Shown here in pieces: positions 16,013-47,100 of a DNA stretch of 64,000 nt (position 1 is its first letter; every line of letters begins with the position of its first letter). The stretch is taken from contig JABLUY010000115.1 in NCBI GenBank assembly GCA_013306675.1, positions 49,065-113,064 on the forward strand, in the 5' to 3' direction. The position numbers were made by a program, and so were the translations under genes. The notes beneath the pieces are model-generated. The model was not told where the DNA came from. It saw nothing but the letters and a program-made list of their open reading frames with translations, and ran no database searches. This DNA comes from Thraustochytrium sp. TN22. Taxonomy: Eukaryota > Sar > Bigyra > Thraustochytrida > Thraustochytriidae.

Positions 16013-18037
16013 TCAGGAAGCTGAAGCTGCTAGCCTTGCGACTTGCGCAGAGGACTCGCGCGTGAGCTCGTGTGTGTCGCCGAGTTGGCGTTGACGAGTC
16101 TCGAGCGATTGTGTTGCAAGCGCGACGTCGTGGCGCGCCTCGGCCAGCCAGTACTGCGTGGCCGCCGTGTCCAGGTGGTCGGCGCCCCACACTGCCTCCC
16201 GGACCTCAAGCGAGCGCTCCAGAGCGTCCTCGGCCTCCCCGAGACGCCGCAGACCCAAGAGCGCACGGCCCTGAGCGAGATAGGCGACGCCGAAGCGGGG
16301 CTGCCTCGCGTTCTCCTTGCCAAAGGTTTCGCTCAGGATGCTCAGCGAATCCTCCGCAGCGTCTAGCGCCTCGTCGTACTGCGCCATGTCCGAGAGGACC
16401 AGCGAGATGGAATAATCGGCGATGGCGACGAACTCGTGCCGATCGCCAAGCGCTTTTGCGTACACCTCCTTGACCTCGCGAAAGCACGAGAGCGCAGCCT
16501 CCAGGTCGCCCTTGGCCTGGAGGGCCCGCGCAATCTCGTGCATTGCCATGGCTGTCTTGGCGTGCTGGTCGCCAAAGGTCTCCTTGTAAAAGGCCAAGGC
16601 CTCCTCGTACTGCGCCAGCGCCGCATCATGCTGCCCTTGGATCTGCAGCAACTGGCCGATGCGGACGCGTGTGACCGCCACCTCGCCGTTGAAGGGACCA
16701 AGCGTTTTCAGCTTGATGGCCAGCGACTCTCGAAAGAGCCGGAGTGCCTCCTCGTGGCGGCCCCGCAAAAGGAGGATGCCGGCCATGTTGTGCACGGAGG
16801 CCGCCGCCTCGGCGCTCTCCGGGCCAAGCACCTCGTTCTTGATGTCCACCGCCTGCTGCAGCACGTCCAGGGCCTCGTCGTAGAGCCCCTGGTCCTTGAG
16901 CAGCCAGCCCACGTTGTGCAGGAGGCTGGCCACACCGAGCGTGCGGCCCTCGGCTTGCACCCGCGCCGCCACGACGCGCTGCGCGGTCTCCATGAGCCAA
17001 ACGCGCAGCTGCGCGAGAACCACGCCGTTGAGTTCACGGAAGCCGTCCTCCAACGAGCCGACGGCCTCCTCGATCATGCGGCGGTCCTCCGGCACGTGGC
17101 AGTCGGCCTTGGCGAGATCAAAGGAGGCGAGCGCGTTCGTGATGGCGGCCGGCGTCTCGGCCATCATGACATGGATGAAGCGCTCGTCCTGGTCCGGCGT
17201 AAAGACCAGCTCCAGCGGCTGCTTGCACTTGACCGCGCCATACACCTCCCACACGCACCACATGCGCGTCAGCGGCGCCGGGTTGTCCCACTTGTCGAAG
17301 AAGATGAGGCGCTCCTCGAAGCGCTCAATGGCCGCATGCAGCCCGTGCGTGAGCAGCTCGTACCGCTGCTGGTAGATTTCGGGCGCCACGCCGTCTCGGT
17401 TGGTCAGCTTGGGCTGGTTGGCGCAGAAGATGTCCAGCCACACATAGGTGCGTGCCAGGTCGCGCCCCTGCGCGCCGTAGTGCGCGGCGATGGCCTCCAC
17501 CAGGTCGCCGAAGCGGCACATGCGCGCCTGGCTCACAAAGGCGCCGTGGAACGGCTTCCCCACGAGGCTCTCGTCTCTCTCCAGCAGCCGCTCCAGGTAG
17601 AAGCAGCTCTCCGGCATGGTCTCGGGGAGAATGGCGTGCTCGCAGACGTCCTCGATGCTCCAGTCTGCGCGCGCCTTGCGCTCGGCCTGGTCCACCTCGA
17701 AGCGCACAAGCCCGTCCACGCGCGCCGCACGGCCCTCGAGGTACTCGCAGTCCTCGTCGCCGTCACATTCCTCCGCGTCGCCGTCCTGCACGGCCACGGT
17801 GCTGCCTGCCTTGGCCTTGTCCACGTCTTCGGAAAGCACGTACAGCTGCACGCCGGCGGCGAGTCGTCCGTCCTGCACGTCTTGCCAGATCTCCTGCAGT
17901 GCCTGCACGCTGAGCCCGCGGTACCACACGATGTCGTTGCTCAGGTCGTCGTCCTCGGCGGCGTTGGTGGCGTTCGGCGTCTTGGTCTTCTTGCGCCATG
18001 CGCGCCGCCGGAGGCCCCGACCCAGCGACGCGAGCAT
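16013..18037 (-). CDS. TPR (kinesin-light-chain-like) protein with TIR/HET-like N-terminal module, paralogue 1
   Basis: I take the start at 18037 (MLASLGRGLRRRAWRKK), giving 674 residues and a polybasic N-terminus like that of paralogue 2; the upstream frame to 18313 is repeat-derived. Order: a small N-terminal domain (LSVQALQEIWQDVQDGRLAAG), then a conserved module with FVSQARMCRFGDLVEAI, TYVWLDIFCANQP (near residue 199), LIFFDKWDNPAPLTRMWCVWE (near 250) and LELVFTPDQDERF. From about residue 360 to the end are TPRs of the kinesin-light-chain type (YDEALDVLQQAVDIKNEVLG and similar). The module's pattern of hydrophobic strands with W-D-x-F-C-x-N-Q and W-x-x-P-x-x-L-x-R-x-W-C-x-W-E resembles TIR- and HET-like folds; that assignment is inference. 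TPRs normally bind peptide partners. Function is unknown. Two divergent paralogues lie at 48962 and 57565. Confidence 0.88.
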   Translation of the reverse strand: MLASLGRGLRRRAWRKKTKTPNATNAAEDDDLSNDIVWYRGLSVQALQEIWQDVQDGRLAAGVQLYVLSEDVDKAKAGSTVAVQDGDAEECDGDEDCEYLEGRAARVDGLVRFEVDQAERKARADWSIEDVCEHAILPETMPESCFYLERLLERDESLVGKPFHGAFVSQARMCRFGDLVEAIAAHYGAQGRDLARTYVWLDIFCANQPKLTNRDGVAPEIYQQRYELLTHGLHAAIERFEERLIFFDKWDNPAPLTRMWCVWEVYGAVKCKQPLELVFTPDQDERFIHVMMAETPAAITNALASFDLAKADCHVPEDRRMIEEAVGSLEDGFRELNGVVLAQLRVWLMETAQRVVAARVQAEGRTLGVASLLHNVGWLLKDQGLYDEALDVLQQAVDIKNEVLGPESAEAAASVHNMAGILLLRGRHEEALRLFRESLAIKLKTLGPFNGEVAVTRVRIGQLLQIQGQHDAALAQYEEALAFYKETFGDQHAKTAMAMHEIARALQAKGDLEAALSCFREVKEVYAKALGDRHEFVAIADYSISLVLSDMAQYDEALDAAEDSLSILSETFGKENARQPRFGVAYLAQGRALLGLRRLGEAEDALERSLEVREAVWGADHLDTAATQYWLAEARHDVALATQSLETRQRQLGDTHELTRESSAQVARLAASAS

Positions 18038-18641
18038 CCTGCGCAGGCGACTTGGACGCGGGGCAGGGCAGGCCTGGGCGGGCTTGCCGCCGCGCCGCCG
18101 GACTTGACGCAGCCGCGGCAGGCAGGCAGGCAGTCTGAGGCAGGCAGGCAGTCTGAGGCTTGCTTGGGCTTCGTGCAAGAAGTGGCGCGCTCGTTCTCCC
18201 GACTGCGCGTGCCACTGTGCACAGCTCCGGCTTCCGAGCTTGGAGTGACGTCGACCTCGGTTTCTTGATTTCATGCTCGGACGCGGGCTCAGACGTGCCG
18301 CGGGCGTGGACATGGACGCAAATTCGGATGGCTACGGATCGGAGCAGTGCATGTTGTATCTCTCTGGTCATATGCAGTGGCCGGTGCGCTGGTTGGCTGC
18401 CGTGAATGGCGGCCTCGTCGTGGCACAACTTGAATGCGCTGCTTTGAGATGGTCTCTTGTTCATGTTTTGAGATGGTTTCTTGTCCTCGTCGTGGCAGCA
18501 TTGAGGTCTTTTTTGTCATCTTCGCTGATGGTCATTGGATTGTGGAGAGTGGTGCTCCGGGTTCCATTGCCCAAGTTGAACTACATCACAAGATTGCTTA
18601 GCCTACATCTCAGGATTGCTTGCATCTCCCAGAGAAGACTG
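18038..18641. other. Intergenic region with GGCA repeats
   Basis: Between the FYVE-ankyrin-RING gene and the first TPR gene, both minus strand. It holds a GGCAGGCAGTCTGAGG repeat at about 18116-18160. The frame of the TPR gene stays open through it to 18313, but as repeat-derived sequence. Confidence 0.5.
18116..18160. repeat. GGCA tetranucleotide repeat
   Basis: Tandem ggcaggcaggcagtctgaggc units upstream of the first TPR gene. The same GGCA motif recurs in the UBE2C leader. Confidence 0.75.
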
Positions 18642-26771: not shown

Positions 26772-27268
26772 CTTAATCCGCGAAAACTCGGAAGAGCCGT
26801 ATACGCGCCTGCACGCTGAACTGGCCGGCTCCTTCTTCAAGTTGATCAAGCAGTGGCAGTGGCAGTCACGGCGTCACGTCGTTCATCACGGTCATCAAGG
26901 TCACGGTGCAATGTGGCCTTCTGATGATCAGTCACCGGTGATTAGGCCTGTTGTCATTTGCACTTCGAGTCTCTCTTCTGGCTCTGTCAGAGTCCGACCT
27001 GAGCCTCGTGTCGGCTCGCCAAGGCCAGCAATCTCGTGCCAGCTAAGAAGGAATCGCCCAGGTCCAGCACACGCCGACCTTGCACCCGAAACAGAGCTCA
27101 CGAGTAGATACTGGTGCTGTGGCGTGCTGACGCTCCTGTGTGACGTCCCGGACGCCGTGCACTCTGCCAACCGTGCTCTGCGGTGCGTGACAGGCGCGGG
27201 ACAGGCGAAAGCTCAACGTGCACGAGTTGCAAGGCGCCAGGGACAGGCTAAAGTCGCAAGTGCGGAAA
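26772..27268. other. Intergenic region, no supported gene
   Basis: Between the IQ-motif gene and the membrane-anchored SAM-like gene, both plus strand. No recognisable exon or element was seen, although an upstream exon of the next gene cannot be excluded. Confidence 0.5.
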
Positions 27269-29029
27269 ATGCCGATCCCTGCGCAGGTTTCGCTGGTCCT
27301 TGTGGAAGGCATGGTGTACTGGTTCTGGACCTGGATCAAGGACTCAGACGCGCAGCCGAGCGTCAACAGCGTCCTGCAGAAGCCCACAGTCTCCGAGTCG
27401 GCCGAACAAAGCCCTAGCACGACGCACGTGAAAACGGTCGCAGCCGGGTTTCTCCGCTGGTTAGGGCACACAGAGACGCGTCCCCCTGCAAACGTCTTCG
27501 TGGTCCCCCAAGCCAGGTCAAACGTCACGCAGCTCGTGAGAAGAACGTCCAAAGTGGCGAAGCCGGCCGCGGCAAGGTTTTTGCACTGGCTGAGCCATTC
27601 GGAGATGCCAACGCTCGCGGACGTGTTGCTGGCGGAGCCCTCCAGTGCCGACATATTGCCGTTCGTGGAACCGAAGGAAAAGCCACCGCAGCCTGTGGAC
27701 GAGAGCAGTGTCATCCAGGCCCTGGACACCCTCATCCTGGTCTTGAGTGCGGCCAACCTTTGCATGCTCATCCTGATTTTCCTCGAGCTGCTCAAGCACG
27801 GCCCGCCCCTGATCTTGAGTCTGCAGTCTGCCTCGCAGCCGTATATTGTCGGTGCAGGACATTGGGCTTCGCGAGCTCTCGCCGGGCCGACGCGCGGCCG
27901 TTTTCCTAACGCTCTTGTTAAGCTCAAGGCGTCGGCGGGCTCCGTGACGACGAACCTTTCGGGCGCTCTCACAAACCTCTTCTGCACGGCCCTCCAGACT
28001 CTTTGCAAAAGTGATCTCGTGCCTCTTTTGCGGAACGAGGGCCTGGGATGGGACACCTGGTATTTAGTCCGTATGCTCGTTGCTGAAAAAATCACGAGCG
28101 TCGAGAAGCTGGCGCGCCTGCACGCGGTAAAAAAGGCGCGTATCGAGGGCGAGCTCCGCCAAACCGTCAGGAAGGCATTCCGCATGCTTTGGGGCGAAGC
28201 CCAGGTGCGTTATTGCTGCACCACAAGAGAGCACCTTTTGCTGTGCATGCCCCGCGTTCGTGTACTCAAGTCTTCGCTCACTGGACTCCCCGTAGACAAG
28301 TACGTGGCGAGAATCTTCAAGCACGTCGTGGATTCTGATCCACCCGCAAGCCTGGACGAGATGAGGGAATGGACGGAGCATGCGCGTGATGCGCAGAATG
28401 GCTTCGCACGACTCGATAATGATGTCATGGCAGCCGAAGAGGCAAGAAATGGCGGCAAGGAGACTGGGGCTGTCGTCAGCGCCCTCGAAAAGCACCGCGA
28501 CCGGAAGGAGGACGAGTACACCACCGCCGTGCGTGAGATTCTCGACCTCGATCGGGAACCGAGAGTTCATGCTCTGGCTACGAGACTATGGCCCTCCGTC
28601 AAGGTGTTAGGCAAGTACGCGAGGGCGCATGGGGAGCTCGTGGGAGAGTATGCGAGACACTTCTGCGTTTGTCGGTGCGTCCTTGGTGACGCACTCGAAC
28701 AAATGGATTCGCACTTGGAGACCAAATCGCGGGAATCTGCGAAGAGGGTCTCTGAATGGCTACAGAGAGCTGCTGCAGCCTGCAGCGACGAGGCTCAGGT
28801 CAAAGCAATGGAGGAGCTTTCAAGGGCAAAATCGGACCTAGTCGAGATGGAGCCTGAGCTGGAGGAGCTCATGGGCGAATTGAAGCAGAGTCGCGTCCGG
28901 CGCGACCAAGCCATCCACAAGGCCGCCGCATTTCTTGTCAAGTACGCGGACACGGTCATGAGCCCGATTCTGGACGTCAGGAAGGACATCGTTAGAAAAT
29001 ACGGCAGGGCATCGCTCCACCGCATCTGA
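27269..29029 (+). CDS. Membrane-anchored SAM-like protein, kinase/E3-less paralogue of the next gene
   Basis: From the first ATG (27269) the protein has 586 residues. The N-terminal third has hydrophobic segments, notably LILVLSAANLCMLILIFLEL near residues 155-175, likely a membrane anchor. Then come a SAM-like helical domain (LVRMLVAEKITSVEKLARL) and a long helical region. The second half aligns collinearly with the next gene: both have DKYVARIF, VVSALE/VLSALV, VKVLGKYARAH and DQAIHKAAAFLVKYA / DKAVAKAAAYLVVYA. It stops where the other continues into the kinase-like and RING parts. It therefore looks like a tandem duplicate lacking the catalytic C-terminus, or an ancestral form before fusion. 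Ankyrin repeats, present in the neighbour, are not evident here. Function is unknown; a partner or regulator of its neighbour is an inference. Confidence 0.8.
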   Translation: MPIPAQVSLVLVEGMVYWFWTWIKDSDAQPSVNSVLQKPTVSESAEQSPSTTHVKTVAAGFLRWLGHTETRPPANVFVVPQARSNVTQLVRRTSKVAKPAAARFLHWLSHSEMPTLADVLLAEPSSADILPFVEPKEKPPQPVDESSVIQALDTLILVLSAANLCMLILIFLELLKHGPPLILSLQSASQPYIVGAGHWASRALAGPTRGRFPNALVKLKASAGSVTTNLSGALTNLFCTALQTLCKSDLVPLLRNEGLGWDTWYLVRMLVAEKITSVEKLARLHAVKKARIEGELRQTVRKAFRMLWGEAQVRYCCTTREHLLLCMPRVRVLKSSLTGLPVDKYVARIFKHVVDSDPPASLDEMREWTEHARDAQNGFARLDNDVMAAEEARNGGKETGAVVSALEKHRDRKEDEYTTAVREILDLDREPRVHALATRLWPSVKVLGKYARAHGELVGEYARHFCVCRCVLGDALEQMDSHLETKSRESAKRVSEWLQRAAAACSDEAQVKAMEELSRAKSDLVEMEPELEELMGELKQSRVRRDQAIHKAAAFLVKYADTVMSPILDVRKDIVRKYGRASLHRI

Positions 29030-29460
29030 CAATTCCTCCGACAAATGACCACGGACCAGTGCACCCGTCCAGCTTCAGCACTCCCTGTCAAGATTTCTTT
29101 CGCCCGAGAACAGGTCTATTCGGGAATCACACGTGATGAGCCCATTCTTGCTGCGCTCCCTCGCTCCAATGTCGATTGCCACGGCTCCGCGCCGGCGCGC
29201 CAGACTCGTGCACTCAGCTGCGCTGCGCAAGCGACGTGCAGCAGCGCCGGAGCTTGCACTGGTGCAGGCAGGCCACGCGCCCCCAGGGCGCCCAAGCCGA
29301 GGACGGCCCGCGTCCGGGCAGGCGCTTGGGTCTTGGTGCTGATTGCATCAGGCCACACGTGCCGCCGTGGCCGGCGCAAGCGCAGGCAGGCAGACCCCTG
29401 TGCTCGTAGGCTACAGCTACTCGAGGGGGATCGGGACGCAGAGCGCGCGGGACCCGCGTC
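29030..29460. other. Short intergenic region in tandem pair
   Basis: 431 bp between the two tandem paralogues. Only short Arg/Ala-rich open frames are present and no gene is supported. Confidence 0.6.
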
Positions 29461-32400
29461 ATGTCCTGGTTGTTCTCTTCGCGCGAGGTCGTGGCCCCCA
29501 TGGTGATGCCGCCGCCACCTGAGGTTGAGGATGGCGAGGATTTGGATGGTCTCGTTGTGGCGTTCCTCTCCATCCTCGTCACATTCCTCACCTACAAAGT
29601 TCTCAAGTGTGTTGCTCGTGCCGCCGCGTGGGGCACGGCTGCCCTTTTCTGGCACGCCTCCGTTGGCGTGCTCAATGCGCTCAGTCGGACTCCACTCGTG
29701 CTCGCCTGCAAGGAGGGACACGTGGAGATCGTCCAGCGGCTCCTGGAGGATGGCGCGGATTGCAATGCCAGGGACGTGAGCCGGCGCACCGCCTTCATGT
29801 ACGCAATCGACGTGCCTACAAAGGTCGAATCGTCCCTGGAGATGATCAAGCTGTGCTGGATTTATGGGGCCAATCTCGACATCCGCGACGTTTGGGGCAT
29901 GTCGCCACTCGACATTGCGCGCAAACGGGGCGCGGTGAGCGTGTACAAGCTCCTGGAGTTTCTGAGCGTGAGCGACCTCGTACCCTTCCTCCTCGCAGAG
30001 GCCTGGGTCACGCGGCAAGTGATACTGGAACTCTTCGCTCGTGACATCACCAGCATCGAGGAGCTGGCGAGTCTCAGCGCGGATCAACTCGCACGGATCG
30101 AAGCCGAGGTCCTCCCGTCGGGGAAGTACGGCTTAAGTGCGACCTGGCGAGAAGCCCGGCTGCATAACCGGTGCGAGACAGCAGCGCGCGTTGCGCGGTC
30201 AATTTCATGTGTTTCTGCACTCCGTTCTTCGCTCACGCGGATTTCGAACTGGCGGCCCTTGGACAAGTATGTGGCAAGAATCTTCGAAGATTTCGAAAAG
30301 GCTGACACGCACAGAAGCCTGGACAGGGCGAGGAATGCCATCCAGCACGCGGGCCTTGCGCAGGAACATCTCGACCAACTTCAAGAACAGATTAGGGCAG
30401 CCACGGAGGCTGCAGCACGCAGCAACGAGCCAGACGTCACGGTTTTGAGCGCCCTCGTAGCCGCACGCGACCAAGCGCGAGAGACCTGCATTGCGGCTTT
30501 GCGCGAGGTCCTCCAGCTCGATCCGCGCTCGGTTGGGCATGCCCTGGCACAGACAATCTGGCCGGAAGTCAAGGTTTTGGGCAAGTACGCGAGGGCGCAT
30601 CAGGAGACTGTGGAGGAGCATGATCTGAGCTTCGACGCGTGCAAGGCTCTCCTCACCGACGCGCTCGGCAAGATGAAGAAGTTTTCGGACATCAAACGAG
30701 AGCTCCCGGGTCTCGTTCGGGTCACCCTACAAGAGGCTGCGACAGCATGCGGCACGCACTTCACACTCATGGCGGACCACGCGACAGCCTCCGACGCGTC
30801 CCACGATCAAGTCGTGGCGAATGTGACGGTGATGGTTGACCTACATGCGCGCCTGATGGAGCAGAAGGCCGCATTGGAAGACCTCATCCTCAACGATGCG
30901 TCCAAGCGCCTCCGCATCGATCGCGACAAGGCAGTTGCCAAGGCCGCCGCATACCTTGTCGTGTACGCGGAGAGGGTCGCAGGCGCTATCCTGGACGACA
31001 GTAAGGACGCGACTGCAGCGGCTGAGCTCAGGCTGCCCATTCTTTTGGAGGGTCGGGAGCGGCCCGACACGTCAGCGCTGGAGCAACTCTTGCAGAGCGA
31101 TTTGAAGAGGCGTCAAGAGAAGGAGTCGCTGGAGCTCCAACTAAGGCATGCGCAAGAATCTGCAGCGCATGGAGGCGCAAATCCGAACGACAATCCTACT
31201 GTAAAGAGGCTGCAGCGGAAGATCGACGCCATCGGCTTGAACGAAATCCAACGCGAGACCATCCAGCTGCGGAAAAGGATAATCGAGCTCGCAGATGCTC
31301 ATTACCCAGAGCTGCTGCAAGACGCCAGCTGGCGCCGCAGGATTGGCTTGCCCGGCGAGTCGGCAGTCGATGTGAGCAAGCTGGGCATCTGGGTGGGCAG
31401 CGCGAGCGCGGCCGACTTCAGGAACCTGCAGGTCTTGGCCGCAAACAACAGCAAGGAAGTGCGCAAGGTGCGCAACCAGGCGGGCGATGAACTCGTGCTG
31501 AAACGATACTACCTGGGCGGCCAGGCCCAGGTAAGGCGATTCTATCGTCAAGCTGCGGCCCTCAAGAAGATCGACAGCGCACATATCGTGCGCGTGGACG
31601 GCGTCTTTGAGGAGGCCGACTGGGGCTACCTGTTGATGCCGTTCTACAAGGCTGGCGACCTGGACGCATGGATCAAGGCCAACCCGCACGCTGACGTCGA
31701 GACACGCAAGCGTATCGCAATTGGCATCTTTTCTGGAGTGCGGGACCTGCACCGGCTGCACCACGTGCACTGCGATCTCAAGCCGGGCAACATCCTGCTC
31801 GCGCCAGGGCTCTTCCCCGTCATTGGCGACTTCGAGGGCGTTCGAGACATCAACACCACCCTCACCGCCCCTGTCCTGGCCACGATGCGGTACGCCGCGC
31901 CCGAGCTCCTGGGTGCAGCCGTCGAAGACCGGCCCAAGGTCGGCCCGCAAGTGGACATGTTCGCCTTGGGCGTCCTCCTCGGAGAACTCTTTCCTGAACC
32001 GCCTGCTCTCGTCGCGGACCTCGCTGCAAAGCTCAAGTCCCGCGACCCATCGAAACGCCCATCTGCTCAGGACGTGCTTGACGGTCCTGCATTCGGAATG
32101 GAGACCGTGCCGACTTCGCTCTGCGCGATCTGCATCGACAGCGAACCCACTGCACGTGGCGTGGCATGCGGCAGTGGGCACTTTGTCTGCGGTGCCTGCC
32201 TTAGCCGGGCGGTGGAGATGGCGGCGGACCCGCAGGTGAACAGCGTGCAGGTCACTCGCGATGGCGGGCTGCAGTGCATGGCTGAAAACTGCGACCACGT
32301 CATTGCTGGGTCAAAGGTCGCGCCGCGCGTGACCGAAGCAGCATACGACGCCATGATGCGCGTTGTGCGCGAGCACCTGGAACGCAACGCAGCCGCGCAG

Positions 32401-32862
32401 CTTGACGCCGAGGTGCAACGCCGTGTCCAGGCCGCGCTGCAGGCGAGGCACCGCGACAGATCCGTGCAGCTTCATCTTGAGGCAATCAGAGATAAGATCC
32501 TCTGCGTCTCGTGCCCTCGGTGTGCCCAGGTCTTTGTCGACTTCGATGGCTGCTGCGCCCTAAGGTGCAGTAATCCTGTGTGTCCGCACTACTTTTGCGC
32601 GTGGTGCCTCGAGGGCGCGGGGAAAACGAGCGACGAAGCTCATCGTCACGTCGCCTACTGCAACCAGAAGCCTCGAGGCGCCGACCGTTATTATGGCGAC
32701 CACGACGCTGTGCGCCGGAACTGGGCACGTATTCGAGCCCGCCGTCTCGCGGACTACGTACGCAAAGAGCTGCGGTCGGGAGATCTCCGCGTCGCGGTGT
32801 ACAAGGCGCTGCGACCGCTCCTCACGAGCGACATTGTTGGCGAAGGCTTTCAGCTTCCATGA
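29461..32862 (+). CDS. Ankyrin, SAM-like, kinase-like and RBR-type E3 fusion protein, membrane-anchored
   Basis: A single-exon 1133-residue protein. A hydrophobic anchor (GLVVAFLSILVTFLTYKVL) lies near residues 28-48. Ankyrin repeats span about 75-165 (TPLVLACKEGHVEIVQRLL), followed by a SAM-like helical domain (LVPFLLAEAWVTRQVILEL) and about 400 residues of coiled helix. A protein-kinase-like domain runs about 640-880: putative ATP-site Lys681 in ELVLKRYYL, HCDLKPGN at 770-777 (HRD changed to HCD), DFE at 790-792 instead of DFG, and YAAPELL as APE. Catalytic Asp772 and Asn777 remain, so activity is possible but the DFG Gly is lost. The C-terminus has a RING-like CAICIDSEP cluster from about 888 and a RING2-like CPRCAQVF then DGCCALRCSN and CPHYFCAWCLE from about 1017. 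The Cys after DG aligns with the RBR catalytic Cys. It may couple ligand or membrane sensing to ubiquitination; this is inference. Confidence 0.85.
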   Translation: MSWLFSSREVVAPMVMPPPPEVEDGEDLDGLVVAFLSILVTFLTYKVLKCVARAAAWGTAALFWHASVGVLNALSRTPLVLACKEGHVEIVQRLLEDGADCNARDVSRRTAFMYAIDVPTKVESSLEMIKLCWIYGANLDIRDVWGMSPLDIARKRGAVSVYKLLEFLSVSDLVPFLLAEAWVTRQVILELFARDITSIEELASLSADQLARIEAEVLPSGKYGLSATWREARLHNRCETAARVARSISCVSALRSSLTRISNWRPLDKYVARIFEDFEKADTHRSLDRARNAIQHAGLAQEHLDQLQEQIRAATEAAARSNEPDVTVLSALVAARDQARETCIAALREVLQLDPRSVGHALAQTIWPEVKVLGKYARAHQETVEEHDLSFDACKALLTDALGKMKKFSDIKRELPGLVRVTLQEAATACGTHFTLMADHATASDASHDQVVANVTVMVDLHARLMEQKAALEDLILNDASKRLRIDRDKAVAKAAAYLVVYAERVAGAILDDSKDATAAAELRLPILLEGRERPDTSALEQLLQSDLKRRQEKESLELQLRHAQESAAHGGANPNDNPTVKRLQRKIDAIGLNEIQRETIQLRKRIIELADAHYPELLQDASWRRRIGLPGESAVDVSKLGIWVGSASAADFRNLQVLAANNSKEVRKVRNQAGDELVLKRYYLGGQAQVRRFYRQAAALKKIDSAHIVRVDGVFEEADWGYLLMPFYKAGDLDAWIKANPHADVETRKRIAIGIFSGVRDLHRLHHVHCDLKPGNILLAPGLFPVIGDFEGVRDINTTLTAPVLATMRYAAPELLGAAVEDRPKVGPQVDMFALGVLLGELFPEPPALVADLAAKLKSRDPSKRPSAQDVLDGPAFGMETVPTSLCAICIDSEPTARGVACGSGHFVCGACLSRAVEMAADPQVNSVQVTRDGGLQCMAENCDHVIAGSKVAPRVTEAAYDAMMRVVREHLERNAAAQLDAEVQRRVQAALQARHRDRSVQLHLEAIRDKILCVSCPRCAQVFVDFDGCCALRCSNPVCPHYFCAWCLEGAGKTSDEAHRHVAYCNQKPRGADRYYGDHDAVRRNWARIRARRLADYVRKELRSGDLRVAVYKALRPLLTSDIVGEGFQLP

Positions 32863-35128: not shown

Positions 35129-38100
35129 ATGGCGGAGCACGGCGAGCAGGGCGGCGCGCGGTCGCCGGGCGCGCGCAGAGACCTCGTGTCGCCGGGCGCG
35201 CAGCGCGATGCGCAGCGAGGCATCATGAGCGAGGCGCTGGCCGTGGACCCGGGCCTCGTGGAGGAGCAGCGGCTGTACGAGGGCAAGGACGAGCGCGAGG
35301 TGCGGTCGCCGACGAGCCCCGTGCAAATGTCGCCCAAGACGTCGGGCTTCCGCGCCGCGCCGCCTGGCGTGGTGCCGCTGCGCGGGCGCGCGAGCCTGTG
35401 GTCGGGCGACAGCAAGGGCGATGCGCGCGACGAGACGTCCATCTTGGCGCGCGCCAGCGAGCCCAAGGTGCAGGTGCCGCACCGGCCGCAGCCCGGTCGC
35501 GCGCCGCGCCGCGTCGAGGTGGAGCGCCTCAAGAAGGTCTACGCGGCCTGGGACTTGGAGCAGCTGCTGCGCGAGCGCCGGCCGGAGCTGGCGTCCGCTG
35601 CTAGCGTGCGTGACGGGCATCAGTTGCCGCTGTACCCGTTCGACGACGAGGAGTTCGAGGAGCGCACGCTGGAGGCCTGGATCAAGGTGGGCAGCGACCC
35701 GGTGACGGGCGACTTTGTCGGCCTGCCCGCCAAGGCGCGCACTGACGAGGGAGCTTGGGCGCCCTGCGTCGTGCGCTCCTGGGTGCCGGACAATGGCGGC
35801 GTCCTCGAGGTGGAGTGGGCGCAGCCCTCGTCCGCCTCGGCGCCGCGTGCGAGCCGCTCGCGCCTCGAGGTGTACCTGCTGGCGGAGTCCCCGGTGCGCT
35901 TCGCGGACCGCGTAGCCAGCGCGCATCGGCGTCGTGACGAGGCCATGGTCCTGCTGCAGTACAACCTGACGCTGGACTCGATGCCCATCGAGGGCATTGC
36001 GACGCTCGACGACCAGCAGACCAAGCGCATCGAGCACAAACTCGTGTCGTCCGCCAAGCTTTCGGACTTGAGTCGCAACGACGCCAAGCTGCTCAAGGAG
36101 GTGCGCGCGTCCTACGCGAGCGCCATGAACAAGGTGGTCTTTGGCGGCACGCTGGACCGTGTGGCGCGCGGGCACGCCGGCGACGAGGGCAGCACGCCGC
36201 TGCACTCAGCCGACGGCATGCTGGCCAGCCTGCTGCGGGACTTTTTGCCGCACGCCGACCTTCTTCGCACCCGGCCTGACGGCTCGGAGGTGCAGGCACT
36301 CGCGGGGCGCACGTCAGAGCAGACGGCGGCCGCGAGGCAGCGGCGCCAGGCGGCCGCGGCGGACTTCGCTGAGAAGCTGCAGGAGTTCAGCTTCAAGTCG
36401 CTGTACACACAGGACGGTGTCATGGGCGCGTTGGAGACCATCAGCATCGAGTGCGTCAAGGTGCTCCAGTACCATCTGTTCAATACGACTGTGGCCAAGA
36501 GCGTCAAACTGGAGGAGTTCCAAAACCTCCAGACCACCGCGACGACCAACACGGTGGCCTTCATCAAGGGCAAGTGGACCATGGCTGTGAAGAACATCGT
36601 CCGTGCCAGCTTCAAGGATGTCGGCAAGGGCTGGTTCAACCTTCGCGAGAGCAGCATCGAGGTGTATAACTTCAGCAAGCTCAAGCGGTTCTTCGTGCTG
36701 GTCAACTGCATGATGCAGGACTCCATGCGCTTCATGACGGTCCACTCGCTCAAGGACTACGTCCACTTTCTGCGCCGCTCCGCGGACGCGCGCATCGACG
36801 TCAAGTCGGCCACCGAGGTCCTCATTCAGTACGAGCACTCCGTTCGGGACGCCGAGGTGCGGCAGGGGCCGCTCTTCGCGCTGGAGCTCGTCGTGGAGGA
36901 GCGCCAGGCCGCCGCCGCTCCTGCGGCCGGTGCCGGCGCTGCTGGAGACGATGCGCTCGCCGCGCGCGATTCGACCAAGTCGAGCGCACGGAGCGGCGCC
37001 GCGCCAGAGGACGACGCTGGCAGCAATGCCGACCAGGCCGAGGGCCAGGAAGACGGCGCCGGCGCCGCTGAGGACGATGAGGCCGCCGCGGCCGCGGCCG
37101 CCGCCGCCGAGGCTGCCGCCGCCGCTGCGGACGACAACCTCGGCAAGTACGTCATCAAGTACAACTTTGACCCGGCCGTCTTCCTCAAGGTCCCGGTGCA
37201 GCTCTTCTTCAAGGCATTGGCGGCCCTGCAGCACATCCCGCGCGTGGAGAAGCAGGTCATGGACAAGCTGTTTTGGCCGGACGAGCCGCTCGTGCGCGCC
37301 GTGAGCCAGCACGAGGGCTGGGTCCAGGACCTGGCAGCCCAGATCGAGGCGTCCATGGCCCGCGCCGTCGACCCGCTCCAGACCTATCTGAGCCAATACG
37401 ACCAGCACCTGGAGTTTCTCAACTTCGAGGTGGAGGATTTCATGAGCGAGGTGGAAAAGTCATGCCGCGACGGCGGCGAGGAAGAGGAAGATGACGATGA
37501 TGGCGGTGGCGGCGGTGGCGAGGGCGCCCCGAAGAAGCGGCCCGCCATGCTGGACCCAAAGAAGATCAAGGCGCTCATCGACAAGCACACCGCCGCCAAG
37601 GAGGAGGTCGGCGAGGTGATCCCCCAGATCATCAGCGTGGGCATCTTCTCCGTCTCGTGCGGGTCGCTGCGCCGCATGCTGCAGGACAAGCACCAGGAGC
37701 TCGTGGACCGGCTCAAGACGCTCCTGGCGACGCGCACCGCCGAGGTGGGCAACTACATCCTCGAGCAGTACAACGAGATCCGGCGCGAGATCGAAAAGCC
37801 CGTGGAGAACATCGAGGAGCTCACGGCGGTGCAGCAGTTCATGGAGCAGGCACCCGCCAAGGTGCGCGCGCTCGAGGCGGACGCGCGCAAGATTTTCAAC
37901 AAGATCGCAGTCCTCGACACGTACTGGTACCAGTTCAAGAAGCAGGACGACATCGACCTGCCGTGGTGCATCTTTGGCGGTCCAAAGGCGGTGGCGGAGA
38001 CGCTCGAAAAGGCCGAGGCGCGCAACGAGGTGACCAAGGTGGCGTACCAGGAGCAGCAGACCGAAGAGCAGGAGGCCTTCACCTACACGCTGTCACAGCT

Positions 38101-41100
38101 GGAGCAGGACATTGAAGGTCTTGCGCAGTTCTCGGACCTGGGGCGCATCACCATGATCGCCAAGCGCGTGCACGACCTGCGCGCGCGGCTGAACCAGGCC
38201 GAGGAGGACGCGCGCCGCTTCAACTCGCGCGAGCTGCTCTTCGAGCAGGACCTGACCAACTACGATGCCGTCACGGAGATGAACAAGGAGTTCGAGCCGT
38301 ACGAGACGCTCTGGCTGTCGGCGGACGCCTGGCTCAAGAACAGCAAGGTGTGGACCGAGAAGAAGTTTGTCGACCTCGACGCAGAGGAGATGGAGCAGCA
38401 GGTCTACGACTACCACCGCAACCTGATCCGGTCCGTCAAGTACTTCGAGAAGAAGGAGCTCCCGGACATCGTGGCCACCGCCGAGGACGTCAAGGCGCAG
38501 GTTGAGGTCTTCAAGCCGGTTGTCCCCCTCGTCATCTCGCTGCGCAACCCAGGCATGCGCGAGCGCCACTGGAAGGCGGTCAATGCCAAGCTCGGCTACA
38601 CGACGACGCTGGCGCTGGACCCGGACGACCCGGGCTTCACGCTCGACCGCCTCATGTCCGACGACCTCGGCCTGCTCAAGGACGCCAGCAAGGCCGACAT
38701 GATCACCAAGGCCGGCGAGGTCGCCGGCAAGGAGTTTCAGATCGAGGTCGCCCTGGACAAGATGGAGCGCGAGTGGAGCGGCGTCAACCTCGACATCGCA
38801 CCCTACAAGGAGACGGGAACCTACGTGCTGCGTGGCTTCGACGAGCTCCAGGCGCTGCTGGACGAGCACGTCACCATGACGCAGGCCATGATGTTCAGCG
38901 CCTTCAAGGGCCCCTTCGAGGAGCGCATCGAGAAGTGGAATCACACGCTCAGCGTTGTCAGCGACGTCCTCGACGAGTGGGTCGGCGTGCAGCGCAACTG
39001 GCTCTACCTGCAGCCCATCTTCGACTCGCCCGACATCAACAAGCAGCTTCCCACGGAAGGCAAGCGCTTCGCGACTGTCGACAAGAACTGGCGCCAGACG
39101 CTTGGGGCGGCCTTTGAGAAGCCCACGGCCATCAAGTTCTGCGCCAGCGAGGCGCTCCTTGACCGCTGGATCGAGTCCAACAAGTTCCTCGACATGGTGT
39201 CCAAGGGCCTCAGCGACTACCTGGAGACCAAGCGCTCGGGCTTTGCCCGTTTCTACTTCCTCTCCAACGAGGAGCTGCTCGAGATTCTCTCGCAGACCAA
39301 GGACCCGACCATGGTACAGCCGCATCTCAAGAAGTGCTTCGAGGGTATCAAGCGCGTGCACTTCGACGACAACCAGGTCATCACCGACATGTTCTCCTCC
39401 GAGGGCGAGCAGGTCAAGCTGGCCGTAGACATCGACCCGGCCGGCCGCAACGTCGAGGACTGGATGACCATGCTCGATGACACCATGAAGCAGTCCGTCA
39501 AGGAGGTGCTCTACGCGTCCATGCTCGAGTACGTGGAGATTCCGCGTACCGCGTGGATCCAAAAGGTCGCCGGCCAGTGCGCCATCAACGGCTCGCAGTT
39601 CCACTGGACGCGCGAGATCGAGGAGGGCATGGACGCGCGCGGCGCCGACGGCGTGCAGGAGTGCTTTGAGCAGCAGGTGCGCCAGATCTCGGACATGGTC
39701 GACCTCGTGCGCGACCCGAATCTCAAGCGCATGGCGCGCATCACGCTCTCGGCGCTCACCGTCATTGATGTGCACGCGCGCGACGTCACCGAGAAGCTCG
39801 CCAAGGAGCGCGTCAGCAGCAAGGAGGAGTTCCTCTGGATCTCGCAGATGCGTTTCTACTGGGAGGACGGCGAGGCGCTCGAGGGCGACATGCGCGTCAT
39901 GATGGTCTCTTCGCGCCGCCCCTATGGCTACGAGTACCTGGGCAACTCCTTCCGCCTCGTCATTACGCCGCTCACCGACAAGTGCTACCTCACGCTCATG
40001 GGCGCCCTGCAGATGACCCTGGGCGGCGCGCCGGCCGGTCCCGCCGGCACCGGCAAGACTGAGACCACCAAGGATCTCGCCAAGGCGCTCGCCAAGCAGT
40101 GCGTCGTCTTCAACTGCTCCGACGGTCTCGACTACCTGGCCATGGGCAAGTTCTTCAAGGGTCTCGGCAGCTGCGGCGCCTGGGCGTGCTTCGACGAGTT
40201 CAACCGCATCGACGTCGAGGTGCTCTCCGTGGTGGCGCAGCAGATCATGACGCTGCAGCACGCCGCCAAGGCCGGCCTGGACCGCATCGAGTTCGAGGGA
40301 ACCATGATCAACATGAACGACCAGTTCGCCGTCTACATTACCATGAACCCGGGTTACGCCGGCCGCACGGAGCTGCCCGACAACCTCAAGGCGCTCTTCC
40401 GCCCCGTCGCCATGATGGTGCCCGACTACGCGCTCATCGGCGAGATCATGCTCTACTCCTTCGGCTACGCCAAGGCGCGCATCTGCGCGAAGAAGATGGT
40501 GGCCACCTTCCAGCTCTGCTCCGAGCAGCTCTCCAGCCAGGACCACTACGATTACGGCATGCGCGCCGTCAAGACCACCATCGTGGCGGCCGGTAACCTC
40601 AAGGCGGCCGAGCCCGACGCCGAGGAGGAGGTCCTCCTCCTGCGCGCGCTGCAGGACGTCAACTTGCCCAAGTTCCTCAGCCACGACCTCCCGCTCTTCA
40701 AGGGCATCATCTCGGACCTCTTCCCGGGCCGCAAGCGCCCGGACATCGACTACGGTCAGCTGCTCAAGTGCCTCAAGATCACCGCCGAGCAGATGCTCCT
40801 GCAACCCGTGCCGTTCTTCATGCAAAAGTGCATCCAGCTCTACGAGACCATCGTCGTGCGCCACGGCCTCATGCTCGTGGGCCCCACGGGCGGCGGCAAG
40901 TCGCGCAATGTGGAGTGCCTCGACGAGACGCTCTGCCTGCTCAAGCGCCGCGGCATCGAGGGCTTCGCGTTCGAGAACATCGTTCGCCACACGGTCAACC
41001 CCAAGTCCATCACCATGGGCCAGCTCTACGGCGAGTTCGACCCCAACACGCACGAGTGGCAGGACGGTATTCTTGCCTTCCTCGTGCGCGAGTGCGCCAA

Positions 41101-44100
41101 GAGCACGACGCCGGACCGCAAGTGGGTCATGTTCGACGGCCCCGTGGACGCCATCTGGATTGAGAACATGAACACTGTGCTCGACGACAACAAGAAGCTC
41201 TGCCTGAACTCGGGCGAGATCGTGGCGCTCAGCCCGGAGATGACCATGATGTTCGAGGTCGAGGACCTCGAGGTCGCCTCGCCCGCCACCGTGAGCCGCG
41301 TCGGCATCGTCTACATGGAGCCGCATTCGCTCGGGCTGGAGCCCGTGCAGCGCAGCTGGCTCGAGACGCTGCCCGAGGCGACGCGCACGCCGGAGTTTGT
41401 CACCAAGCTGCAGACGCTCTTCGACCGGTATGTCAAGAGCCTCATTTGGTTCCTGCGGCGCAACTTCAAGGAGCCCGTGCCGACGTGCGACAACGCGCTC
41501 AACGCGAGCCTGCTCAAGTGCCTGGACTGCTACTTTGCGCCGTTCCGCGCGCGCGAGGGCGGCGAGCCCATCTCCAAGGCCAAGGTCAAGGAGCTGCTGG
41601 AGGACCTGGAGCCCACCTTTCTCTTCTGCGCCGTCTGGTCGCTCTGCTGCACGGTGGACCGCGAGGGCCGCGAGCGCTTCGACCAGTACATGCGCAACCT
41701 GATGTCGGCGCACAACTCCGCGTACTGCTTCCCGGAGGCGACCGACGACGGCACGCCGCTGAGCATTTACGACTTTGTGTGGGCTGTCCCCGTCGCGGTG
41801 CAGGACGCCTATGCGGCAGATGACGGTGGCAAGCCGCCGCCGCGCAAGCGCTGGACGCGCTGGATGGAGACCATCAAACCCTTCGTGTGCGACCCGGAGC
41901 TCAGCTTCCACGAGACCATCGTGCCGACGCGCGACTCCATCTGCTACACGTACCTGATCGACATTTTGCTGCGCAACGGCAAGCACCTCCTCATGACGGG
42001 CCCCACCGGCACGGGCAAGACGGTCAACATCAGCAAGCACATCAGCACGGGCCTGCCGGCGAACTTCATTCCGCTGCCGCTCACTTTCTCCGCGCAGACC
42101 AGCGCGAATCAGACGCAGGACCTCATCGACAGCAAGTGCGAGAAGCGCCGAAAGGGCGTCTTTGGCCCGCCCGCCGGCAAGCAGTACATCATCTTCATCG
42201 ACGACCTCAACATGCCCAAGCGTGAGGAGTACTTTGCGCAGCCGCCCATCGAGATCATCCGCCAGTGGTTCACCTATGGCGGCTGGTACGACCGCAAGGC
42301 GCTCGTCTTCCGCAAGCTCATCGACATCACCATGTGCGGCGCTATGGGTCCGCCTGGCGGCGGCCGCAACCCGGTTACCGCGCGCCTCATCCGCCACTAC
42401 ATGGTCATCAACTACACCGAGATGGACAACGCCGCTATGCAGGTCATCTACGAGACCATCGTGTCGGCCTTTGTCAAGTCGAACCAGCTCGACGCCGGCT
42501 TCGCGAGCCTCGGCCCGCTGCTCGTGCGGTCCACGATCGAGATCTTCCAGACCATCTGCAAGGAGCTCCTGCCCACACCCGCCAAGTCTCACTACACCTA
42601 CAACCTGCGCGACGTCGGAAAGGTCTTCCAGGGCGTGCTCATGGTCAACGCCAAGGCGCTCAGCACGCGCGACGACATGATTCGCCTTTGGGTGCACGAG
42701 AGCCGCCGCGTCTTCGGCGATCGCCTCATCAATAACGAGGACCGCGCCTGGTTCGACAACCAGCTCGGCGAGCACATCGCGGCGCGCATGGACTCCTCGC
42801 TGGAGCAGATTCTCGGCACCGACAGCGAGCACCTGCTCTTTTGCGACTTCCTTGTCCCGGGTGAGTCCTCGTACGAGCACGTCAAGGACACGCCTGGGCT
42901 TATCCCGCTTGTGGAGGAGTACCTGGTGGACTACAACGCCGAGTCCAAGCAGCCCATGAACCTGGTCATGTTCATGGACGCGATCACGCACATTTGCCGC
43001 GTGACGCGCGTCCTCCGGCAGCCCCTGGGCAACGTGTTGCTGCTGGGCGTGGGCGGCTCCGGTCGCCAGAGTCTCACCAAGATGTCCTCCTTCATCTGCG
43101 ACTACGCGCTGTACCAGGTGGAGATCTCCAAGGGATACGGCATGTCGGAGTGGCGCGACGACGTCAAGACGGCGCTGCTCAAGGCCGGCATCGAGGACAA
43201 GCAGGTGGCCTTTCTCTTTGTCGACACGCAAATCATCGACGAACAGATGCTCGAGGACATCAACGGCATCCTCAACAGCGGCGATGTGCCGAACCTGTAC
43301 GCACCCGAGGACATGGAGTCCATCATGAGCACGTGCAAGATCGACTGTACCAAGAAGCGCCTGCCGCCGACCAAGATCAACATCTTCGCACAGTACCTGC
43401 TGCGCGTCAAGCGCAACATCCACATGTGCCTGTGCATGAGCCCGTCGCCCATCTTCCGCGAGCGCCTGCGCATGTTCCCGGCGCTGGTGAACTGCTGCGC
43501 GATTGACTGGTTCTCGGAGTGGCCGGACGAGGCGCTGCGCAGTGTCGGCATGGGCATCATGCAGGAGGTGGACCTCAAGCTGGGCGACCACCTGAACAAC
43601 ATCGTGGAGCTCTTCAAGGTCTTTCACCAAGGCGTGGCCAAGGCGAGCGCGGACTACTTCAACTCGCTGCGCCGTTACAACTACGTCACGCCGACCTCGT
43701 ACCTGGAGCTGCTCAACACCTTCAAGGTGGTCCTGCAGAAGAAGCGCGTCGAGGTGGGCGGCCTCGTGCAGCGCCTGCAGGTGGGTCTCGACAAGCTGCT
43801 GAGCACCTCGTCCATGGTGGCGGACCTGCAAAAGGAGCTCACCGCGATGCAGCCCAACCTGGTCAAGACGCAGGCCGAGGTGGAAGCCATGATCAAGAAG
43901 ATCGCCGTCGACAAGGAGGGCGCCAAGGAGACCATGGAGGTGGTTGCGCGCGAGGAGGCCGAGGCGCAGGACAAGGCCGCCAAGACCAAGGAGATCGCGG
44001 ATGACGCGCAGCGCGACCTGGACGAGGCGCTGCCGGCGCTCGACCAGGCCGTGGCCTGCCTGAACAAGCTGAAAAAATCCGACCTGGACGAGGTCAAGTC

Positions 44101-47100
44101 GCTCGGCAAGCCGCCGCACGGTGTCAAGCTCACCATGGAGGCGGCCTGCATCATGTTCGGCGTCAAGCCCGTCATGGTCAAGGACCCGGCCAACATGGGC
44201 GCCAAGGTCAAGGACTACTGGGGCGCGGCAAAGAGCTCGCTGCTGGCCAACGCGAACCAGCTGCTGCAGGACCTCATGTCCTTCGATAAGGACAACATCT
44301 CGGAGAAGACCATTGAGCAGATCACCGCGTACATTGACATGCCCGAGTTCACGCCGGCCGAGATCGAAAAGGCCAGCAAGGCCTGCACGGCCATTTGCAT
44401 GTGGGTGCGCGCCATGTACAAGTACCACAACGTGGCCAAGGCCGTGGAGCCCAAGAAGGCGCTCCTGGCCGAGGCGCAGGCTGAGCTGGACTTGACGATG
44501 AGCTCGCTCAACGACGCACGCGCGCGCCTCAAGGGCGTGCAGGACCAGATCGCTGCGCTCGAGGCGGACTTTGAAAAGTCCAACGCCAAGAAGCAGCAGC
44601 TCGAGAACGACGTGGAGCAGTGCGCGGCGCGCCTGGAGCGCGCGCAGAAGCTCATTGGCGGTCTCGGCGGCGAGCGCGATCGCTGGACGCAGAGCATTGA
44701 GCAGCTCAACATCGACTACGTCAACCTGATTGGCGACGTGCTCATCTCGAGTGGCTGCATCGCCTACCTGGGCCCCTTCACGTCCAACTACCGCGAGGAG
44801 CTCACGGCGGAGTGGCTCGGCGAGGTGCAGCGCCTGGAGATCCCGCACACCGCCGGCGTCGACATTGTGCAGACGCTGGGCGACCCGGTCACGATCCGCT
44901 CCTGGAACGTCGCCGGCCTGCCCTCCGACATGCACTCCGTGCAGAACGGCATCATCATGAGCGAGGCGCGACGCTGGCCGCTGCTCATCGACCCGCAGAC
45001 GCAGGCGAACCGCTACATCAAGAACATGGGCCGCGACCGCGGCAACGCGCCCAACGGCATCGAGGTCGTCAAGCAGAGCGATAAGAACCTGCTGCGCGTG
45101 CTGGAGAACGGCGTGCGCTTCGGCAAGTGGGTGCTCATGGAGAACGTGGGCGAGAAGCTGGATGCCGCGCTGGAGCCCGTGCTGCAGCAGCTCACCTTCA
45201 AGCAGGGCTCGCAGGTCATGATGCGCCTGGGCGACTCCACCATCCCGTACAATGACAACTTCCGCTTCTTCATGACTTCCAAGCTGCCCAACCCGCACTA
45301 CCCGCCCGAAGTCTCCGTCAAGGTGAGCCTACTCAACTTTAGCATTACGCCGCAGGGCTTGGAGGACCAGCTTCTGGGCGTTGTCATGGTGAACGAGCTG
45401 CCGGAGAAGGAGGAGAAGAAGAACGCGCTCGTGGTCAACAATGCGCGCATGGCCAAGGAGCTCAAGGACATTGAGGACACCATCCTCTACATGCTGAGCA
45501 ACTCGCAGGGCAACATTCTCGACGACCAGGAGCTCATCGAGACGCTGGCCACCAGCAAGGTCACCTCGAACGAGATCAACAAGCAGGTCGAGGAGGCCAA
45601 GGAGACCGAGAAGGAGCTCGATGCGGAGCGCGAGAGCTACCGGCCGGTCGCCTTCCGTGGGTCGCTGCTCTTCTTTACCATCTCGGAGCTGCGCAACATC
45701 GACCCCATGTACGAGTACTCGCTGCAGTTCTTTGTGCAGCTCTTCTCGCAGGGCATCCTCAAGTCGGAGCACCCGGAGGACCCGGCGGACGTGCCGGAGC
45801 GCATCCGCCTGCTCAACAACTACTTCACGTACTCGCTGTACCAGAACATTTGCCGCAGCCTGTTTGAGAAGCACAAGCTGCTCTTCTCCTTCTCGCTCGT
45901 CATCAAGGTGCTGCAGGGCGACAACCGCGTGGACCCGGTCGCGTGGCGCTTTCTGCTGAGCGGCCAGGCGCCCTCGAAGGTGCGCGACTGCCCGCTGCGC
46001 GAGTCCCCGCCCGGCGGCTGGGTTACCGACAAGATCTGGTCCGAGGTCGTCAGCCTCACGGAGGGCCTGGAGAACTTTGAGGGCTTCGCGCAGCGCTTCT
46101 TGGACCACATCGACGACTGGAAGCGCATCTTCGACTCCGAGACCGCGCACAACGACCGCCTGCCCGAGGACTACAGCGACCGCCTCTCCATGCTCGAGAA
46201 GCTCTGCGTGATTCGCTGCATCCGCCCGGACAAGATCGTGGAGGCCGTGCAGATCTTCGTCTCGGCGCACTTTGGCCAGCGCTTCATCGAACCGCCGCCC
46301 TTCGAGATCGACGCCTGCTACAAGGATTCCACCGTCATCACGCCGCTCATCTTCGTGCTCACCAGCGGCAGTGACCCGACCAAGGACTTCTTGCTCTTTG
46401 CCGAGGCGCAGAACCGCAAGGTGAATGCCATCTCGCTCGGCCAGGGCCAGGGCCCGCTCGCGGAGGCGCTCATTGAGCAGGGCGCGGCGCGCGGTAACTG
46501 GGTGCTCCTGCAGAACTGCCATCTTGCGAGCAGCTGGATGCCCAAACTGGAGCAGATCTGCGAGAACCTCGACCCGGACGAGCTGCACAAGGACTTCCGC
46601 CTCTGGCTCACCTCGATGCCCTCGAAGATTTTCCCGGTCTCCGTGCTTCAGAACGGCATCAAGCTCACCAAGGAGCCGCCCAGCGGTCTGCGCGCCAACC
46701 TCAAGCAGGCCTACTTCAACCTTGACGACGACGAGCTCTCCGTGACCAACAAGCCGCACGTGTTCCGCAAGCTGCTCTTCGGCCTCTGCTTCTTCCACGC
46801 GCTCATCCAGGAGCGCCGCAAGTTCGGCCCGCTCGGCTGGAACGTGCCGTACGAGTTCAACGATACCGACCTCGACATTAGCCGCGCACAGCTCGAGCTC
46901 TACCTTGACAAGTACGACGATCCGCCGTACCCGGTGCTGCGCACGCTGACCGCCATCATCAACTACGGCGGCCGCGTCACCGATGCCATCGACATCCGCA
47001 CCATCGACGTCATCCTCAGCCAGTTCTACAATCCAGAGGTCCTCCACGAAGGCTACAAGTTCTCCGCGAGCGGCATCTATCACACCGTCGCGTTCGAGGA

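Follow-up and report, generated by a model that had tools for sequence, protein, structure and literature searches.

In a window of 64,000 nucleotides (the whole stretch of DNA analysed here) from Thraustochytrium sp. TN22, an open reading frame (ORF) at positions 29461 to 32862 encodes a single protein in which ankyrin repeats, a protein-kinase fold and a Cys-rich C-terminal module are joined. The module combines a RING1-type and a RING2-type domain with no IBR domain between them, an arrangement that recurs in all 17 sequences aligned, and it probably belongs to a ubiquitin ligase (E3) that passes ubiquitin over a Cys.

The fusion gene and its domains

The ORF forms a single uninterrupted frame that starts with ATG and stops with TGA, is preceded by an in-frame stop at 29407, and has a GC content by codon position of 0.675/0.442/0.733. 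The features assigned to it, all on the forward strand, are listed with the amino acid (aa) positions of the protein.

29461..32862 (+): whole ORF, 1133 aa plus stop, in the order ankyrin repeats, middle region, kinase, RING1, helix, Rcat
29539..29616 (+): hydrophobic segment, aa 27-52, that may anchor the protein in a membrane (highest 19-residue Kyte-Doolittle mean 2.1)
29653..29955 (+): about three ankyrin repeats, aa 65-165 (Pfam Ank 1.6e-11, Ank_2 3.1e-10)
29956..31260 (+): family-specific middle region, aa 166-600, judged helical by eye
31402..32070 (+): protein-kinase domain, aa 648-870 (Pfam, Foldseek, alignments)
31828..31836 (+): DFE, aa 790-792, at the DFG site (alignments; relatives have DFD or DLD)
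32122..32301 (+): RING1, aa 888-947
32326..32502 (+): helical linker, aa 956-1014, at the place of an IBR (linker Cys count, model)
32503..32670 (+): RING2/Rcat-like domain, aa 1015-1070 (profile, alignment, model)
32551..32553 (+): Cys1031, first Cys of DGCC, predicted ubiquitin acceptor (conserved in 17/17; catalytic column of HHARI and Parkin)
32698..32859 (+): C-terminal helical extension, aa 1080-1133 (modelled helices)

The preliminary description of this DNA, made from its letters, had placed ankyrin repeats, a kinase-like region and an RBR-like RING2 on one polypeptide, and this was borne out by the single ORF and by the same combination in paralogues and in proteins of Hondaea fermentalgiana. 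It had also proposed a membrane anchor, for which the hydrophobic stretch is indeed present in the window protein, but the possible membrane segment is not family-wide: by the same 19-residue mean, a segment of at least 1.6 was found in a paralogue on contig C399 (1.94) and in neither of two paralogues on contig C161 nor any of the three Hondaea proteins checked. No Pfam family was found for the middle region, of which the structure model takes in only aa 586-600, and a NCBIfam scan of the window protein gave kinase and ankyrin matches far under the cut-offs, plus two weak others.

The Cys-rich module and the kinase domain

The 17 sequences of the module alignment leave out P0001 and P0124, in which RING2 is broken or incomplete, a partial third copy on C161 and P0130, which has an IBR. 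Row coordinates were set by hand. The RING1-type ligands of the window protein are C888, C891, C903, H907, C910, C913, C939 and C944, of which C888, C891, C903, C910 and C939 are conserved in 17/17 sequences and H907, C913 and C944 in 16/17. The RING2-type residues are C1018, C1021, C1031, C1036, C1041, C1046, C1049, H1061/H1063 and C1067; conservation is complete (17/17) at C1018, C1031, C1036, C1046, C1049, H1063 and C1067 and reaches 16/17 at H1061, and position 1021 is Cys in 13/17, the remaining four showing a C-P-x-x-G-H form. The spacing C-x2-C-x9-C-x4-C in the window equals that of both canonical RING2s of the same genome. The Cys right after DG is invariant and is followed by C, F, L or T, and the usual place of the catalytic His (Cys+2) is occupied by Ala in 16/17 and by Val in 1/17.

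The comparison of the RING2 profile with PDB entries gave the RING2s of HHARI and Parkin as top matches, with Cys1031 in their catalytic-Cys column, where the HHARI RING2 entry 2m9y has Ser and 1wd2 has Cys. All 50 structural matches listed for a model of RING2 alone were RBR entries, and the RING2 match in the model of the module was weak. RING1 and its helix matched RBR RING1s in the structural VIA list; a RING1 profile built from 13 members (without P0003, P0004, P0126 and P0128) placed RNF4 at the top of its match list. The module pieces of the window protein fall below Pfam thresholds, the Cys-rich end giving only 0.32 with IBR_1, and a 12-base CPxC-type DNA pattern was uninformative in the window (3 matches versus 1.98 expected).

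In excerpts of two sources, RBR ligases are portrayed as a fixed trio RING1-IBR-RING2 (PMC3305615, PMC2904391), with C6HC as the pattern of the IBR (PMC2904391). The linker between RING1 and RING2, of 64-79 aa and modelled as helices at aa 959-996 and 1000-1014 of the window protein, contains 0-3 Cys, too few for C6HC, so that an IBR at this place is absent in 17/17 sequences. The second Cys cluster was also considered as a candidate IBR and rejected, as three IBRs scored at most 3.0 bits with the module RING2 profile versus 20-21 bits for two RING2s. P0130 has RING1, then a Pfam IBR (3.9e-7) and finally a cluster to which the same profile gives 78 bits. Because P0130 joins RING1 and an IBR to a RING2 of the same type, the module would most simply be an RBR from which the IBR was lost. 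The RBR-type E3 proposed earlier thus stands in part: RING1 and a RING2 with a predicted catalytic Cys were recovered by profile and alignment, but the IBR is missing in the window protein and in 16 other members, and the catalytic His at Cys+2, common although not universal in RBRs, is replaced by Ala in the window protein. As had been claimed, the catalytic Cys of RBRs has its aligned counterpart in the first Cys of DGCC, and the profile, and to a lesser degree the fold, marks the last cluster as RING2-like as opposed to an unrelated zinc finger.

Pfam Pkinase matched aa 667-844 (2.2e-26, 93.3 bits, cut-off 31.7), and the region was modelled as a kinase fold that was matched by Foldseek. Its motifs are K681, HCD 770-772, K774, N777, DFE 790-792 and APE 813-815; Q697 stands at the alphaC Glu position, and the Gly-rich loop is lost, the corresponding place reading VLAANNSKEVRKV. 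K681, D772, K774, N777 and D790 are retained in 10/10 rows of the kinase alignment. The window kinase therefore has the VAIK Lys, the catalytic-loop Asp and Asn and the metal Asp of protein kinases, and lacks the Gly-rich loop, the alphaC Glu and the DFG Gly. At the alphaC Glu position the thraustochytrid branch has Gln, and P0004, P0126, P0129 and P0012 have Glu. The DFG site is DFE in the window, DFD in the three kinase-bearing paralogues and in Hondaea, and DFD (7/8) or DLD (1/8) in eight database fusion proteins, P0001 and P0124 included. Among the other kinases found, HCD accounted for 26/118 motif occurrences and an acidic third DFx residue for 1/118, which was P0012; the readings classed as "other" in this parse include three that are DFG read wrongly (DMV in two cases, DFN in one), and two occurrences could not be parsed. 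The change of HRD to HCD was rejected as a mark of a dead kinase because HCD is common. Among other kinases of the same genome, 13 of the 14 fetched were readable, all having HRD or YRD with DFG.

The kept ATP-site Lys, catalytic Asp and Asn (K681, D772, N777) and the kinase fold noted in the preliminary description were thus confirmed; its HCD and DFE are both present, but the former is common, relatives carry DFD or DLD at the latter, and the Gly-rich loop and alphaC Glu are lost as well. By its fold the window protein counts as a kinase, one that lacks several of the catalytic motifs, and the chances that it transfers phosphate were put at about even.

The kinase tree was built from 35 domains, of which 10 were fusion kinases, one was P0012, 11 were kinases chosen by hand from the database and 13 came from the same genome, L028 being left out for want of a motif. 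The fusion kinases and P0012 formed one group with support of 100/99. Because P0012 appears to lie inside this group (fork support 94/93; P0126 is a long branch), the fusion label needs two changes, and one sufficed in 0% of 200 bootstrap trees; a single fusion event followed by one loss is possible. P0012 itself is an HCD and DFD kinase joined to a PARP catalytic domain, with no RING module in a Pfam scan.

Relatives of the fusion protein and neighbouring genes

The own-genome searches covered the 37.9-Mb, 453-contig assembly. The paralogue on C399 is near full-length, with 52% identity over aa 60-1133 of the window protein, and C161 carries two tandem paralogues (44% and 42% over the kinase and C-terminal part), each with ankyrin matches and adjoined by the partial third copy, which retains RING2 and the C-terminal part (L006, C161:16045-16416). 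ORFs on C22 (803 aa) and C166 (635 aa) have the Cys module and no kinase motif; P0127, a relative of the C166 ORF, carries PF00595 (PDZ), and another module protein, P0128, is named a PDZ protein by its source. With P0130 as query, all 7 matching places in the genome were module loci already named. There are at least 7 module loci, one of them a partial copy, and at least 2 clear IBR-bearing genes, both counts being lower bounds from searches that ignore introns; own-genome matches to the IBR family over the cut-off fell in two places, C293 and C411. On C325 (L015 1426-3006), an AAA ATPase, PEX6-like by eye, was observed to end in C-P-K-C...G-G-C-N-D-M-V-C, like the start of an RBR RING2; its Pfam IBR_1 score, 28.1 bits, is barely above the cut-off of 27.

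Three database searches, with candidate length limited in each, returned 154 (120 listed, mostly plain kinases), 9 and 4 proteins. The proteins nearest to the kinase and C-terminal part came from the thraustochytrid Hondaea fermentalgiana (42-46% identity), in which ankyrin-kinase-module proteins are intact in P0002, P0003 and P0121 and broken or partial in the module in P0001 and P0124, P0001 looking like two copies fused by gene prediction. The module was also found on two LRR-kinase proteins, one taken from EukProt (P0004) and one from a JGI set (P0126), on SF1-type helicases (P0122 from Spongospora, and P0125), on the RRM protein P0123 and on the PDZ proteins P0127 and P0128, and P0129 unites in 945 aa a ubiquitin-like domain, a DFD kinase and an IBR-less RING1-Rcat. 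Those source names that are shown include "protein kinase, putative", "ankyrin repeat and protein kinase domain-containing protein 1" and "nephrocystin-3", and none of them speaks of a ligase. A viral or prokaryotic origin was set aside after scans with the Rcat alignment of viral_contigs and genome_contigs gave 24 and 128 pattern matches, 0 of them confirmed by tblastn, a weak test with a query of 64 aa.

Other ORFs of the window include the following.

27218..29029 (+): ORF directly upstream of the fusion gene, 603 aa, tandem paralogue that matches only aa 164-517 (41% identity)
35129..48169: uninterrupted dynein heavy chain ORF, 4346 aa
4246..6825 (-): ORF of 859 aa with a sterol-sensing/Patched domain
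16013..18313 (-): ORF of 766 aa of tetratricopeptide repeats

The upstream ORF has a hydrophobic stretch (19-residue Kyte-Doolittle mean 2.64) and no ankyrin, kinase or RING match in Pfam; it is possibly a truncated or regulatory partner. Since the dynein heavy chain ORF is uninterrupted over 4346 aa, the DNA is that of a eukaryote with few introns in this region.

Proposed mechanism, alternatives and known systems

Sequence comparison and structural modelling show an RBR-type RING1, a long RING1 helix leading to the helix before RING2 with no IBR, a RING2/Rcat with its predicted catalytic Cys, and a kinase fold that belongs to a clade with DFD, DLD or DFE. We consider it probable that the protein is a Cys-relay E3 of the RING/HECT-hybrid type without IBR, in which the ankyrin repeats would sense substrate or location and the kinase would be a regulator in cis. 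The ubiquitin-charged conjugating enzyme (E2~Ub) would dock on RING1 via the hydrophobic residue of C-A-I-C, and ubiquitin would move onto Cys1031 and then to an ankyrin-held substrate or to the protein itself. Adjoining RING1 in the chain, the kinase domain would be a cis switch that might phosphorylate the module, the substrate or ubiquitin, or else act as an ATP-sensing pseudokinase. In known RBRs, activating ubiquitin binds at the RING1-IBR interface. This interface is described as the RBR allosteric site (PMC9834252). Where the IBR is missing, such an input should not exist and control should come by other means, perhaps from the kinase or from the sensor domains. Because the IBR is missing, the protein is described as RBR-like in its working parts and is not filed as a strict RBR. 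A bolder and quite unlikely extension is a one-chain circuit like that of PINK1 and Parkin, in which an acidic-DFx kinase clade that several eukaryote lineages have fused to a Cys-relay ligase without IBR would activate this ligase in cis by phosphorylating ubiquitin, the ubiquitin-like domain (P0129) or the module, the latter being a self-standing E3 class that swaps its sensors (ankyrin, LRR, PDZ, RRM, SF1 helicase).

If the protein were a plain RING ligase, RING1 alone would activate E2~Ub for direct transfer and the RING2-like part would be a structural zinc domain. In ordinary RINGs, Arg or Lys is common after the last ligand, whereas the residue after the last RING1 ligand is basic in only 2/17 sequences here; together with the RBR-type match of RING1 and its helix, and with a Cys1031 that is invariant while the zinc position 1021 is Cys in just 13/17, this makes direct transfer unlikely, even with RNF4 first in the RING1-profile list and the usual catalytic His absent. 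The HHARI and Parkin counterpart of Cys1031 is, moreover, described as zinc-free (PMC3305615), although KEG (KEEP ON GOING, a plant RING E3) offers a RING-type precedent for the union of RING, kinase and ankyrin repeats (PMC5385374). The module could instead be a protein-binding zinc scaffold in a protein that is no ligase and whose working part is the kinase, in line with the scores under Pfam thresholds; profile and fold matches that go to E3 domains and the invariance of Cys1031 render this decidedly improbable. It is scarcely credible that separate genes were read as one through a gene-model or assembly artefact, as apparently happened in P0001, because the domain order is kept in three own-genome paralogues, uninterrupted in frame like the window gene, and in three intact Hondaea proteins; an artefact of ORF calling was ruled out on the same grounds.

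The probability that the kinase is a dead pseudokinase, which would give the ligase a scaffold for ATP binding or dimerisation, falls somewhat short of even, and such a scaffold would be compatible with the Cys relay. It would explain the loss of the Gly-rich loop, alphaC Glu and DFG Gly in the thraustochytrid branch, but the five residues retained in every kinase row, the alphaC Glu kept by the relatives P0004, P0126, P0129 and P0012, and the occurrence of DFD in the MNKs speak against it. WNG kinases are active. They lack the Gly-rich loop (PMC6442604), which counts against a dead kinase as well.

A natural family in which the IBR is recurrently dropped would help to show whether the IBR serves the Cys relay or allosteric ubiquitin control only, and a kinase in cis would provide a one-molecule system for phosphorylation-gated Cys-relay ligases. 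No description of such an IBR-less, kinase-fused family was found in the titles and abstract openings among the matches listed in one open-access library, weak evidence that it is not yet in print.

The RBR E3s RNF216 (TRIAD3), HHARI, Parkin and HOIL-1 resemble the module in RING1, the RING1 helix and a RING2 with its catalytic Cys; unlike them, the module lacks an IBR, carries Ala where the catalytic His usually stands and has a conserved H-x-H-V-x-x-C end. Residues 652-771 of RNF216 align weakly with model positions 117-242 (C-terminal helices). P0130, a protein with KH domains of the DEAH11 type, has a RING2 of the same type as the module but differs in that its Pfam IBR is kept and no kinase was found; it would be akin to the Helicase/Plant I RBRs. 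MNK1/2 have an ordinary HRD and Gly-rich loop. They share DFD at the DFG site with the fusion kinases (PMC7215568). In the PINK1-Parkin pair an RBR ligase is activated by a kinase (PMC6276879), but the two are separate proteins, and Parkin has RING0 and an IBR; the ubiquitin-like domain of P0129 adds to this parallel. The closest known design is that of KEG, which also has RING, kinase and ankyrin repeats on one chain, with the RING first. KEG differs in its RING type; it also has HERC2-like repeats, of which none were found in the Pfam scan of the window protein, a scan that weak repeats could escape. In KEG, as an excerpt reports, the in-chain kinase domain can affect the turnover of the ligase itself (PMC5385374).
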